A DNA stretch of 64,000 nt, from the NCBI GenBank assembly GCA_017502915.1, contig JAFVUB010000003.1, positions 124,001-188,000 of the forward strand. Reading direction: 5' to 3'. Under the pieces are notes generated by a model that saw only the letters and a program-made list of their open reading frames with translations, was not told where the DNA came from and ran no database searches. Origin of the DNA: Clostridia bacterium (GTDB taxonomy: Bacteria; Bacillota; Clostridia; Oscillospirales; CAG-272). The first letter of the stretch is position 1; every line of letters begins with the position of its first letter. Shown piece after piece: positions 49,781 to 55,398 of the stretch. Position numbers and translations under genes: made by a program.

Positions 49781-51139
49781 TTAACCTTTTTTGAAGTATG
49801 ACACGGCAAGATCGACCACCATTCCGTAGCTCGCAGTTCCGGCAGTGCCCTGCATTTGAAGATAGGTATCGTTAACCGCGCCCGAGATGGTTGCGGCTAT
49901 ATTATGGCGGTACTTTTCGAAGAACTCGTCGTACGCCTTCTGCTCGGCGCGCACCTCCGCGTCAAGCGAGAGGCGAACGCCGTTGTATCTCTCCACCGAT
50001 GCGGCGCGGTGACGGTAAAATCCCAGCGTCTCGGAAAGCTCGGCGTTTTCTTCAACGGCGTTTTTCAACGCCGCGTCGTTTTCAAGAGCCGAAAGAAAGT
50101 CGGTATAGCTCTTTATCTCGCCGTTTTCGGCTTCGTAAGCTGCACGGAGCGATACGATCTCGTCGTATTTGTCGACAAGAGACTTGAAGGTTGCAAAATC
50201 GTAGCACCTATTTGCGTTTACGGCTCGTGCATACGCGTTCGTAACGTATTCAAGCATATTAAGATACCCACTGTACTGAATATAGAGGTCGTCAGACGCC
50301 GTACAGGCAAGAAAGGCAATGAAGTTTGCCTCGTCCTCGCGAGCGATACCGCGCTGATGCGCCAGCTCGTGGGCTGCGGTATACGGTAACGTGTAATCCG
50401 GGAAGGCAACGTTCAGGTTAGCCTCTCCCGTGAAAAAAGAATAGACCCCGGTTATATGGGTATACGACATCAGCTCACTGAGCATGACCGGCTTGACACG
50501 GCTATACATTCTCGGCAAAAAATCATACGTCGCGCAGAGCTCGTCGTAGGCATCGAGCAAAAGGTCGTTCATTTCACCAAGCGAATACGGCATCTGAGAG
50601 AATTCGTCATCGGCGTATTTGACTGCCGAGGCGAGTTGATTGACCTGCTCTGTCAGCAGAACGGTAAGCTCATAAAGATCGTCCTCCGAAACGTCTTTTT
50701 TATCAAGACCGAGACGTCGGTCAAGCGTCGTTCCGTGATATCCCGTGCCAAGCGTCCAGACAAAAAGTATAAGAATGACCAGCGCAACGCTCATTATCTT
50801 GCCCGCAAATATCCAAACGCTTTTCCAGGTCGAGCAGTGGTTTCGGTAAGCAACTATCACGGTAACAACAAGCAGTGGGATCAGCGCAATAAGAAAGACC
50901 TCTCCCAGCGAAAAGGGCAAAATATTGGTCGGTATCGCAAGGGCGTAGCGAACGACAGCACCCACCTTTTCACAAATGAAGTCGGCAACGTCTTGGTTCA
51001 GCACGGCAACGGCGTACGCGATCGCCGAGAGTCCAAACAATATATATATTATCCTCCAGCCCCAACCGAAACGCTCTGTCTTTTCCTGGCAGCGCTCGAC
51101 GGTCTCTTCGTCGCGTGTGTTTCTTTTTATCAATTTCAT
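49781..51139 (-). CDS. DUF3810 membrane metallopeptidase-like protein
   Basis: This 452-residue protein has a basic N-terminus, three membrane helices (~28-48, ~62-100, ~108-132) and a large outside domain. The domain contains the gluzincin motif H257-E-L-A-H261 followed by EDEANF (E268/E270 as third ligand). DUF3810 proteins are predicted zinc peptidases of the envelope; the substrate is unknown. The C-terminal third is helical (EENAELSETLGFYRHRAASVERY). It overlaps the pseudouridine synthase gene by 4 bp (ATGA) and is its operon partner. Confidence 0.88.
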   Translation of the reverse strand: MKLIKRNTRDEETVERCQEKTERFGWGWRIIYILFGLSAIAYAVAVLNQDVADFICEKVGAVVRYALAIPTNILPFSLGEVFLIALIPLLVVTVIVAYRNHCSTWKSVWIFAGKIMSVALVILILFVWTLGTGYHGTTLDRRLGLDKKDVSEDDLYELTVLLTEQVNQLASAVKYADDEFSQMPYSLGEMNDLLLDAYDELCATYDFLPRMYSRVKPVMLSELMSYTHITGVYSFFTGEANLNVAFPDYTLPYTAAHELAHQRGIAREDEANFIAFLACTASDDLYIQYSGYLNMLEYVTNAYARAVNANRCYDFATFKSLVDKYDEIVSLRAAYEAENGEIKSYTDFLSALENDAALKNAVEENAELSETLGFYRHRAASVERYNGVRLSLDAEVRAEQKAYDEFFEKYRHNIAATISGAVNDTYLQMQGTAGTASYGMVVDLAVSYFKKG

Positions 51140-52059
51140 ATCTTTTCTTTCTTAAAATATTCGTTAACGCAGCCATAGCTCTCCAGCACGGCTGCCATAT
51201 CGTCCGGCAACGGAGCCTCAACCGTCACGGTCTCGCCGTCAGACGGACGTCTGAAGGTCAATCGGTAGGCGTGCAGCGCCTGACGGTCTATAACGTCGCT
51301 ATCCCGCCCGTAAAGCCCGTCACCGAGTATCGGGTGGCCGAGATTCGCCATATGAACGCGAAGCTGATGTGTTCGTCCCGTTTTGGGAGAGAGCTCAACG
51401 AGAGAGATGCCGTTTCCCGAATATACGGTTCGGTACTCGGTCAGGGCGCTCTGCGCCCCCTCGGCGTCACTGTCGCACACCTCGCGGACGATAATGCTCT
51501 CGGCACTTCGACGCAGGCTTTTATCAACGATGCCCGCCCCCGTCAGCTCGCCCTCAAGAACGGCAAGATACTCCTTCTCCATTCTTCGATTCAGCATTTC
51601 GGTATACATCATCGAGGCGGCTCGGGCGTGCTTTGCCACCATAACGACGCCGCTGGTGTTTCGGTCGAGTCGGTTCACGGGACGAAAAACGAAGGGTCTT
51701 TCCTGCTTCACATAGTAAAATGCCAGCGCGTTTGCAAGCGTATCGTAGTGATGCCCGTGAGACGGATGAGTCGGCATAAAGGGCGGCTTATTGCAAACCA
51801 CGAGATCGTCGTCCTCGTATATTATCGAAAGAGGAAGCTCGACCGGCTCTGCGGATTCTCCCGACTGAGCATCCTCAATAGCGAGCCCAACAACGTCGCC
51901 CGCCTTGAGCTGATAGCGAACGGTGACCGGCGCGCCGTTTACCGTGATGCCTCCTTCGAGCCTCTTGAGGTGCGCCGACTGCTTTGACGATATCTTGAGC
52001 TTTTTCAGATAGCTTCTCAAAAGAAGACCGTTTCCGTCATCTCCGACGATAAATTCCAT
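51136..52059 (-). CDS. RluA/RluD-family 23S rRNA-type pseudouridine synthase
   Basis: This 307-residue protein has an N-terminal S4-like RNA-binding region (~13-60; HLKRLEGGITVNGAPV) and the catalytic domain with D132 in VNRLDRNTSG, the family nucleophile motif (N instead of the usual H before RLD). LSPKTGRTHQLRVHMANLGHPILGD is diagnostic. The exact target base cannot be read from sequence. GGAGG precedes the ATG, and a promoter lies at 52086-52114. Confidence 0.93.
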   Translation of the reverse strand: MEFIVGDDGNGLLLRSYLKKLKISSKQSAHLKRLEGGITVNGAPVTVRYQLKAGDVVGLAIEDAQSGESAEPVELPLSIIYEDDDLVVCNKPPFMPTHPSHGHHYDTLANALAFYYVKQERPFVFRPVNRLDRNTSGVVMVAKHARAASMMYTEMLNRRMEKEYLAVLEGELTGAGIVDKSLRRSAESIIVREVCDSDAEGAQSALTEYRTVYSGNGISLVELSPKTGRTHQLRVHMANLGHPILGDGLYGRDSDVIDRQALHAYRLTFRRPSDGETVTVEAPLPDDMAAVLESYGCVNEYFKKEKI

Positions 52060-52085
52060 AACGCACCTCCTATTTTGATAACTAT

Positions 52086-52114
52086 ATTATACCACTGTGC
52101 ATCGTTCAATACAA
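52086..52114 (-). promoter_or_regulatory. Sigma-A promoter for the pseudouridine synthase operon
   Basis: On the minus strand it reads TTGTAT, 17 bp, TATAAT. Confidence 0.75.
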
Positions 52115-52135
52115 TGGTTTTTTATTATGGACAAT

Positions 52136-52161
52136 AAAAAAAGCCGTAATTTTTAACGGCT
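52136..52161 (-). terminator. Second (backup) terminator after the candidate small RNA
   Basis: AGCCGT pairs with ACGGCT around an 8-nt A/T loop, followed by TTTTTT on the minus strand. It lies just downstream of the main sRNA terminator. Confidence 0.7.
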
Positions 52162-52171
52162 GAAAATTCAC

Positions 52172-52343
52172 AAAAACAAAAAGGGCGGCTCGGGCGACAA
52201 TGGGGGGATCGCGCCCGAGCCTGGTTCGTCAATTCCGCCAAATCTTTTCGGCAGCAAACGAACAAACTTTAAAGCATCCGGCATAGAGGGGGGCGCCGGA
52301 AGCCAAGAAGTTTCAAAGGTTATTGGGTTTTGGTGACTTTGAC
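52172..52343 (-). ncRNA. Candidate structured small RNA with two C-rich loops
   Basis: A ~170-nt intergenic transcript unit on the minus strand has its own promoter (52347-52375) and a strong terminator. Four hairpins are visible: TCAAAG/CTTTGA at the 5' end; AAACTT/AAGTTT enclosing TCCGGC/GCCGGA, whose loop reads GCCCCCCTCTAT; GTTCGT/ACGAAC (52224-52263) with an inner GCC/GGC stem; and the terminator stem GGCTCGGGCG/CGCCCGAGCC, whose loop also holds six C (52202-52207). C-rich loops are a common targeting device in Firmicutes sRNAs. It lies in the 369-bp gap between sigF and the pseudouridine synthase. I do not recognise a named family. Confidence 0.6.
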
Positions 52344-52346
52344 CAC

Positions 52347-52375
52347 ATTTTAGCACAACTTACAATTTTTTTCAA
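52347..52375 (-). promoter_or_regulatory. Sigma-A promoter for the candidate small RNA
   Basis: On the minus strand it reads TTGAAA, 17 bp, TAAAAT. No terminator separates it from sigF, so the RNA could also be made as the 3' end of the spoIIA transcript. Confidence 0.7.
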
Positions 52376-52428
52376 CCTTTACTGTTGCTGTATTTACATT
52401 TTATTCACCAAAATTTGTCAGTTTGTTG

Positions 52429-53187
52429 TTAAATCAGCTCGCTTTTTAGAAATTCAAGTATCCTTTTTTCCTCTCGCGAGACCTTGACCTGAGATAGACC
52501 AAGCTCATCTGCCGTTTGCTGTTGGGTCATATTCCGGAAATATCGAAGCAAAACTATCCTTCTGTGAAGCTCGGAAAGTCTGTCTATTGCCTGCCCGAGG
52601 GCAACTCGGTCTCTCGTCTTTTCTATGTCGTTTTCGGGGTCGGGCAGACGGCTTTCGAGCGACATCGCGCCTTCTGCATCTCCTCCCTCAGACAATGAAT
52701 ACACCGGTGATATGGAGTCGAGCGCCATCGCCGCCTCCTCGGGAGTCGTTGAGCACAGGCTTGCCAGCTCTCCTATCGTCGGATCTCTCCCCTGCTCGTT
52801 CATAATACGCGTCCTCGCGCCGAGAAGCTCCATTCCAAGCTTCTTCTGCTGACGCCCCACGCGAATGAGTCCGTCGTCCCGAAGGCAACGCTTTATCTCC
52901 CCAACTATAAGGGGCACGGCGTAGGTTGAAAAAGCAAACCCTCGGTCACTGTCAAAGCTTCTCGCCGCCTTGATGAGTCCTATGGTTCCTATTTGGATAA
53001 GGTCTTCAAGCTCGATCCCTCTCCCCCTGAAGCGGACGGCAAGCGAGCGAACAAGACCCGAGTTTGCCTCAACTATCTCGGCTTCGGCATCACGGTCTCC
53101 CGCCTGCGCTCTTTGTATGAGAAGCGCGTTCTTGCCGTATTTTTCGTCCGACGTTCGGTCCGCCGTCAAAGCAAAGGCCACCTCCAT
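52429..53187 (-). CDS. sigF: Sporulation sigma factor SigF (SpoIIAC)
   Basis: SigF directs forespore transcription. This 252-residue sigma-70 protein has region 2 (ELEDLIQIGTIGLIKAARSFDSDRGFAFSTYAVPLIVGEIKR), region 3 and region 4 (MTQQQTADELGLSQVKVSREEKRIL). Its position directly after spoIIAA-spoIIAB identifies it as SigF rather than SigG or SigB. The start shares one base with the spoIIAB stop (TAATG). Confidence 0.96.
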   Translation of the reverse strand: MEVAFALTADRTSDEKYGKNALLIQRAQAGDRDAEAEIVEANSGLVRSLAVRFRGRGIELEDLIQIGTIGLIKAARSFDSDRGFAFSTYAVPLIVGEIKRCLRDDGLIRVGRQQKKLGMELLGARTRIMNEQGRDPTIGELASLCSTTPEEAAMALDSISPVYSLSEGGDAEGAMSLESRLPDPENDIEKTRDRVALGQAIDRLSELHRRIVLLRYFRNMTQQQTADELGLSQVKVSREEKRILEFLKSELI

Positions 53188-54107: not shown

Positions 54108-54136
54108 TTGACATTTGGTGATTATGTTGGTATAAT
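54108..54136 (+). promoter_or_regulatory. Sigma-A promoter for phosphofructokinase
   Basis: It reads TTGACA, 17 bp, TATAAT. Confidence 0.85.
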
Positions 54137-54168
54137 AAATGCGAAATACGTTTTACGAGGTGACAACC

Positions 54169-55398
54169 ATGTCAATGCTAAAAGGAAACGCTGTAGTCGG
54201 TCAGTCCGGAGGCCCCACTGCCGCTATAAACGCAACCCTTTCGGGCGTCATTCGCGGCGCTCTCGCTCACAGTGACGTCATTCCCACCATCTACGGAATG
54301 AGAAACGGAGTTGACGGTCTTCTGCGCGAGGATCTCATCAATCTTTCCGAAATATTCAACGAGAAAAAGCTCACCGATCTTGAAAACACCCCCGCCGCCG
54401 CTCTCGGCTCCTGCCGCCGCAAGCTCCCGAAGCCCGGCGAGAACGACGCCGTTTACGAAAAGCTGCTTGAAATATTCAAGAAAAACGATATCCGTTATTT
54501 CTTCTACATAGGCGGAAACGACTCTATGGACACCGTTGCCAAGCTCTCGGCGTATACAGCCGAGAACGACTACGAAATGCGCATTATAGGCGTTCCTAAG
54601 ACGATCGACAACGACCTCGTGGTCACCGATCACACCCCCGGCTTCGGCTCGGCGGCTAAGTACATTGCCGTGACGATTCAAGAGATCATCCGCGACTGCG
54701 CGGTATACACCACTCCCGCCGTCACGGTCGTTGAGATCATGGGTCGCGATGCCGGTTGGCTGACCGCCGCCTCGGCTATCGGCCGCGCCGTCAACGGAAT
54801 CTCGCCCGATCTCGTTTATCTGCCCGAAAGAGCCTTTGATATGGACAAGTTCTTCTGCGACGTCAAGGCGTGTCTCGACCGTCACCCGAACGTCGTTATC
54901 GCCGTTTCGGAGGGCGTTCGCTTTGCCGACGGACGCTACGTTGGCGAGGGAACGCAAAGCGGTGTTGCCGACGCGTTCGGACACAAATATCTTTCGGGAA
55001 CAGGCAAAGCGCTTGAGCTTGCCGTTAAGGAAAAATTCGGTTGCAAGGTCCGCTCGGTCGAGCTGAATATCTGCCAGCGCGCCGCGGCACATCTGCAGTC
55101 AAAAACCGACATCGACGAGTCTGTTCGCGTTGGCAAGGGTGCGGTAGACGCCGCTGTCTCGGGCATCACCCGCGAGATGATGACCATTGATCGCGTGTCC
55201 GACGCTCCGTATCGAGCCGAAATAGGACACTCGGACGTATCAAAGATCGCAAACCTCATCAAGAAGGTCAACGACGAGTTCATCAACGCCGAGGGCAACA
55301 ACATCACCGATGCAGGAATAAACTATCTTCTCCCGCTGATAGCAGGCGAGACCGCCCCCGAGTGGAAAGACGGTCTGCCGGTCTATTGCATACTTTGA
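54169..55398 (+). CDS. pfp: 6-phosphofructokinase, probably PPi-dependent
   Basis: This 409-residue enzyme interconverts fructose-6-phosphate and fructose-1,6-bisphosphate. It has the PFK core GQSGGPTAAINATLSGVI, GGNDSMDT (in place of the ATP-type GGDGS), VPKTIDNDL (Lys where ATP enzymes have Gly) and EIMGRDAGWL. These two changes and the length point to pyrophosphate as phosphoryl donor, which allows reversible flux. ATG 54169 follows GAGGTGACAACC; the frame is open from 54139 without a ribosome binding site. The SDR gene follows after 4 bp. Confidence 0.93.
   Translation: MSMLKGNAVVGQSGGPTAAINATLSGVIRGALAHSDVIPTIYGMRNGVDGLLREDLINLSEIFNEKKLTDLENTPAAALGSCRRKLPKPGENDAVYEKLLEIFKKNDIRYFFYIGGNDSMDTVAKLSAYTAENDYEMRIIGVPKTIDNDLVVTDHTPGFGSAAKYIAVTIQEIIRDCAVYTTPAVTVVEIMGRDAGWLTAASAIGRAVNGISPDLVYLPERAFDMDKFFCDVKACLDRHPNVVIAVSEGVRFADGRYVGEGTQSGVADAFGHKYLSGTGKALELAVKEKFGCKVRSVELNICQRAAAHLQSKTDIDESVRVGKGAVDAAVSGITREMMTIDRVSDAPYRAEIGHSDVSKIANLIKKVNDEFINAEGNNITDAGINYLLPLIAGETAPEWKDGLPVYCIL

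Follow-up and report, generated by a model that had tools for sequence, protein, structure and literature searches.

The window analysed here is a stretch of 64,000 nucleotides (nt) from a member of the Clostridia (assembly GCA_017502915.1, contig JAFVUB010000003.1, positions 124,001 to 188,000), and the features described in it lie on the minus strand unless stated otherwise. A gap of 369 base pairs separates sigF, the last gene of spoIIA (52429..53187), from a gene for an RluA-family pseudouridine synthase (51136..52059). The synthase matches TIGR00005 over its cut-off, and the best match of sigF is TIGR02885 (spore_sigF) at 225 bits, under the model cut-off of 321. Inside the gap lies a complete unit for a predicted small RNA (sRNA) at 52172..52341, about 170 nt long, with a start near 52340 taken from the position of its promoter and an end within the U-tract of its terminator. 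A homologue that keeps its two C-rich hairpin loops was found in a second genome of the genus, and because that copy is not beside sigF, a free-standing sRNA that acts in trans seems to us most likely, rather than a by-product of spoIIA.

The promoter named in the preliminary description, TTGAAA-17-TAAAAT, was found by the promoter scan at 52347..52375, with 10 of 12 consensus matches and a TG ahead of the -10 that makes it an extended -10 (TGTGCTAAAATG). The 4.5-kb region around it has 8 promoter-like sites, compared with 3.2 ± 1.9 in shuffles. A chain of three strong hairpins begins about 35 nt downstream of the promoter, the third being an intrinsic terminator; the count of four given previously is reached only if a second terminator is included. 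Folding places hairpin 1 at 52264..52313, with the loop CCCCCCTCTA at 52284-52293 and the first run of six C (52288..52293) within it, and the middle hairpin at 52224..52263. The terminator hairpin (52187..52221) carries the second run of six C (52202..52207) in its loop and is followed by the U-tract (52182-52172), so that both C runs lie in loops as originally proposed. This terminator is evident from sequence and fold, and is absent from the terminator-scan list because its unbroken stem encloses more than 8 bases, the maximum of the scan, which gave only the second terminator (52142..52161). Terminator-like sites in the region are no commoner than in shuffles (7 vs 5.7 ± 1.9). The fold of 52140-52343 reaches -79 kcal/mol, against -49.7 ± 4.0 for shuffled sequence (z-score -7.3, with none of 200 shuffles as good), and the z-score is still -6.8 once the second terminator is left out. 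Runs of at least six C number only three per strand in the window, and on the minus strand all but one of them lie in the loops of hairpin 1 and the terminator, 80 nt apart.

A homologue at an unlinked site

The source genome (G000, 59% complete) shares its genus with the genomes G001, G002 and G003. A BLAST search with the gap, covering 59 genomes including its own, gave matches at E ≤ 0.01 in 13, thus in 12 others, all of them weak. One is a 35-base match in G003, with an E-value of 0.006 for one genome that is not significant alone. Read whole, this place (L012) proved to hold an equivalent unit. A TGTGCTATAATG element is followed by three hairpins, of which the first contains CCCCCCCTCTATGCCG and the third, a terminator, has CCCCCC in its loop, and then by a U-tract and a second terminator. 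Since a test of the G003 copy had to avoid circularity, we used a covariance model built from the window copy alone (R2). Run over 236 kb from 66 sources, R2 gives 37.8 bits for the G003 copy (E 5.2e-7, such E-values being rough) and 10.3 bits for the next match. The fold of the G003 copy has a z-score of -6.8.

In the alignment of the two copies all 58 cells are paired and 29 of 29 drawn pairs are possible in both. Seven of the 29 have changed on both sides, among them compensatory changes in 5 of the 10 pairs of the terminator stem. When the pairing was slid by 1-3 columns, 29-45% was paired with 0-1 double-changed pairs, and the observed values were reached by 3 of 500 shuffles; as the consensus structure itself derives from these two copies, the comparison is biased in its favour. 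The 15 bases CCCCCCTCTATGCCG of hairpin 1 are identical in the two copies, and CCCCCCAWTGTCG in the terminator loop is kept while the stems have changed. The sequence of the middle hairpin has mostly diverged, and around the -10 16 of 18 bases are identical. A peptide read by eye from a conserved ATG would have 38 codons in G000 and 14 in G003; it has no visible ribosome-binding site and is not conserved.

The neighbours of the RNA differ between the two genomes. In G003 it lies between a gene for an ECF-type transporter S component (PF07155) and one for a small membrane protein whose tail resembles a zinc ribbon (seen by eye, with a Pfam match below cut-off only), all on one strand. The transporter protein was found in no genome but G003, and the locus is therefore not comparable elsewhere. 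This location bears on a rival reading in which the RNA comes from the 3′ end of the spoIIA mRNA, as was suggested earlier. It would then be a structured end, set free by processing or made from an internal promoter, that acts in sporulation. The RNA and sigF do lie on the same strand, and the scan lists no terminator between sigF and the hairpins. We nevertheless consider this origin quite improbable, as the homologue sits behind an unrelated transporter gene in a 91% complete assembly in which no SigF was found (SigG is encoded), and as sigF is present without such an RNA behind it in G001, in G002 (contig L031) and at L032-L037, where 700 bases each were read by eye and for C runs. Together these observations indicate that the RNA is not bound to spoIIA.

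The preliminary description had proposed to judge the RNA by whether stems and C-rich loops are conserved in relatives that keep the gene order. G003 keeps the stems and both loops, but the order of sigF and an RluA-type pseudouridine synthase is kept in no relative examined. The gene behind sigF in G001 is convergent and TruB-like by eye (a tRNA pseudouridine synthase, an enzyme distinct from the RluA type), and the relatives of the window's RluA-type gene in G001 and G002 are on contigs other than that of sigF. A link to sigF and sporulation is unsupported, given the other location of the one homologue found and a conserved -10 that is vegetative in type; the location removes the reason to assume a sporulation role, although the RNA may still have one. 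It also illustrates that a neighbour such as sigF can mislead. As a separate observation, the first 500 bases past sigF in L031 contain inverted repeats on GAGAACCTTTTTTGCAAAAAAGGTTCTC-like arms and resemble a repeat element.

Distribution and family assignment

The RNA was found in two of the four genomes of the genus (G000 and G003), with one copy found in the incomplete G000 assembly. For a wider search a second covariance model (R1), made from both copies, was run against a family sample of 395 genomes and an overlapping order sample of 394; diverged copies may have escaped this genome search, at its first look or through its stricter filters. The family sample gave 27 places in 26 genomes at E ≤ 1, and the best of these besides G000 and G003 (31.9 bits) resembles a terminator hairpin and has no C run. 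The order sample gave G000 and two weak matches (27.8 and 21.8 bits), neither with a run of five C. Retesting the 25 weak family and 2 weak order places with R2 gave at best 13.2 bits, compared with 37.8 for G003, and none of them shows what L012 does, a pair of C runs with a stem of at least 5 pairs each.

Searches with short patterns from the loops pointed the same way. The pattern CCCCCNCTATGCCG occurs at 27 places in 25 of the 395 family genomes. Outside G000 and G003, 21 of its 25 places are in frames open for at least 91 codons of 300 bases and four are not (L120, L123, L131 and L142); only one, L130, has a second C run nearby, and it is in an open frame. The loop 2 plus T-run pattern gave 30 rows in the same genomes, or 25 distinct places, and the fold is present at none of the 23 besides G000 and G003; the sole other place with a second C run (L207) has it in a different hairpin. 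The two-motif pattern was found 0 times in viral contigs, and blastn against plasmids and phages gave no match. Within the genus, CCCCCCTCTATGCCG with at most 2 mismatches occurs at 21 places, and 10 loci were read. The middle of one of these, L090 (G002:C160:20603-20617), is hairpin-like (CCCCCCGCTATGTCGG) with a single C-rich loop, in a genome that does not carry the sRNA; R2 does not recognise the place, which may be a remnant or chance. The stretch ahead of the promoter also gave matches, and at the five loci inspected none of these is followed by anything resembling the RNA. The distribution is narrow, with two species of one clostridial genus so far.

The RNA belongs to no known family that we could detect, in agreement with the preliminary description. 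Rfam 15 gave no match in the window at the gathering cut-off, and at E up to 10 nothing useful in 52000-52480, where the best, chance-level match has 21.2 bits and would need 51.4. The G003 copy had no Rfam match at E up to 5. The 6C RNA of actinobacteria has two hairpins, each with a run of about six C, and differs from the RNA described here in that it gave no match in the Rfam scans of the window. Searches of literature listings and abstracts turned up no account of such an RNA in this clade, which is weak evidence of absence. We regard the RNA as new at the level of sequence families. Functionally it can be placed among the sRNAs with C-rich regions, a loose class that is not a homology family: it is a short RNA with its own predicted promoter and intrinsic terminator, and in two genomes it has conserved C-rich stretches in unpaired regions.

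The sporulation sRNA CsfG of Bacillus deserves mention, given a spore-forming host and C-rich stretches; CsfG is described as having conserved CU-rich or C-rich stretches in loops (PMC3574147, PMC4409812). That the window RNA is a strongly diverged CsfG seems very remote, as the CsfG model (RF00516, ylbH) has no match in the source genome, with the B. subtilis control detected, or in the permissive Rfam scan of the region. CsfG is also described as controlled by sigma F and G (PMC9147052), whereas the window RNA has a vegetative-type promoter.

By layout, LhrC and IsrR appear to be the closest described RNAs. LhrC of Listeria monocytogenes is reported to carry C-rich motifs in two loops, hairpin loop A and that of the terminator, and to bind with both of them a G-rich sequence ahead of the lapB start codon (PMC4132741). 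LhrC is multicopy, and one of its three UCCC sites is single-stranded, whereas the window RNA has one copy found, runs of six C, an extra middle hairpin and no Rfam match. IsrR of Staphylococcus aureus is described as reducing translation of target mRNAs, with C-rich pairing to G-rich ribosome-binding sites (PMC9410917). It differs in being Fur-regulated and staphylococcal (no search for a Fur site was made here), and its terminator is poorly conserved in sequence, whereas that of the window RNA has a C run in its loop. RoxS/RsaE and FsrA of Bacillus and Staphylococcus are similar in having several C-rich regions (PMC4409812, PMC8464778, PMC12871923), and RoxS is reported to pair with ribosome-binding sites through them (PMC4409812, PMC8464778). 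Their layout is different, and neither has a sensible Rfam match in the window region at E up to 10.

Interpretation and candidate targets

With its own promoter, chain of hairpins, terminator and homologue, the locus is very probably a real, expressed sRNA gene. We favour, with some reservation, a stand-alone, vegetatively promoted sRNA that acts in trans, its C-rich loops pairing with Shine-Dalgarno regions in the manner of RoxS/RsaE, IsrR and LhrC. The two loops would be the conserved contact sites and would start pairing with G-rich Shine-Dalgarno regions, of the GAGGGGG type in preference to plain AGAGG. Such pairing would block ribosome binding, and the block may lead to decay of the mRNA. 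That the RNA acts by blocking ribosome-binding sites, and so represses its targets, is in our judgement reasonably probable.

Several results weigh against this. The -35 in G003 is poor (TTGTAT, 3 of 6 bases) and the scan does not list the promoter there; it lists another -10 30 bases downstream, whose start would lie inside hairpin 1. The covariation evidence is thin because there are only two sequences, and G001 and G002, which are 92% and 90% complete, have no detectable copy. In the account of FsrA consulted, in vivo confirmed base-pairing does not involve its C-rich regions, and C-rich pairing is largely predicted (PMC8464778). In the window itself, loop 1 pairs with 60 start regions at a mean of -6.32 kcal/mol and reversed loop 1 at -6.42. 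The pattern GAGGGGG before ATG, compared with its backwards version, occurs 10 vs 9 times in G000, 17 vs 10 in G003 and 20 vs 24 in G002, and 22 vs 4 times in G001, a genome without the RNA. The frames behind the GAGGGGG sites of G000 and G003 have no common orthologue.

These results also bear on the targets named earlier. AGAGG does precede gpmI (33471), rplU (4054) and the 25648 gene (the names gpmI and rplU being those of the earlier reader), but as specific targets they are not supported, with a match of five bases only, 97 occurrences of AGAGG over both strands and a loop 1 that does no better than its reverse. Target prediction on the window start regions, suggested as a check, likewise gave loop pairing no better than the reversed-sequence control: loop 2 has a mean of -5.02 kcal/mol over the same 60 regions, and -10 kcal/mol or better is reached at 3 regions by loop 1, 1 by loop 2 and 5 by reversed loop 1. 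C-rich sequences tend to pair with start regions of any kind.

That no target could be supported would fit a rival explanation, in which the unit is a region of tandem terminators, or its C-rich loops bind a protein or nucleic acid and do not pair with ribosome-binding sites. A terminator that follows an upstream gene requires no extra function. This explanation we hold to be unlikely, since both same-sequence loops are kept at two unlinked places despite a changed terminator stem, and since hairpin 1 and its loop are unnecessary for a plain terminator.

For the favoured trans-acting sRNA, the genes behind GAGGGGG sites are leads only. The 27 sites examined (10 in G000 and 17 in G003) include 13 frames of at least 60 codons, several with implausible starts. 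The sole match between G000 and G003 frames at E < 0.01 is an 18-residue iron-sulphur motif. Among the G000 starts, L178 belongs to a PAP2-like membrane protein, L182 and L186 to proteins of no family, and L179 to a 4Fe-4S protein whose relatives, at scores below the model cut-offs, are sulfhydrogenase beta and AsrA subunits. The duplex energies of loop 1 with six G000 frames, -16.0 to -20.2 kcal/mol, are a consequence of the way in which the sites were selected. A bolder and rather doubtful extension would be an undescribed clostridial sRNA family, a promoter-to-terminator cassette at unlinked sites in which two redundant loops with six C are most fixed, and which would control GAGGGGG-type genes including the iron-sulphur protein candidate. 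If this were true, the RNA would parallel the iron-sparing sRNAs FsrA and IsrR. Bacillus, Staphylococcus and Listeria have well-studied sRNAs of the C-rich-loop type, and the RNA described here would add uncultured Oscillospiraceae-like clostridia to the range of that type. Its gene is defined and has a homologue, and its two loops are open to testing.

The three genes upstream of the RNA have SpoIIAA, SpoIIAB and SigF as their best NCBIfam equivalog matches, of which only SpoIIAB is over its model cut-off. Divergent from spoIIA, on the plus strand, a perfect sigma-70 consensus promoter (TTGACA-17-TATAAT, with TG ahead of the -10) at 54108-54136 precedes a gene at 54139-55398 that is phosphofructokinase-like by eye.
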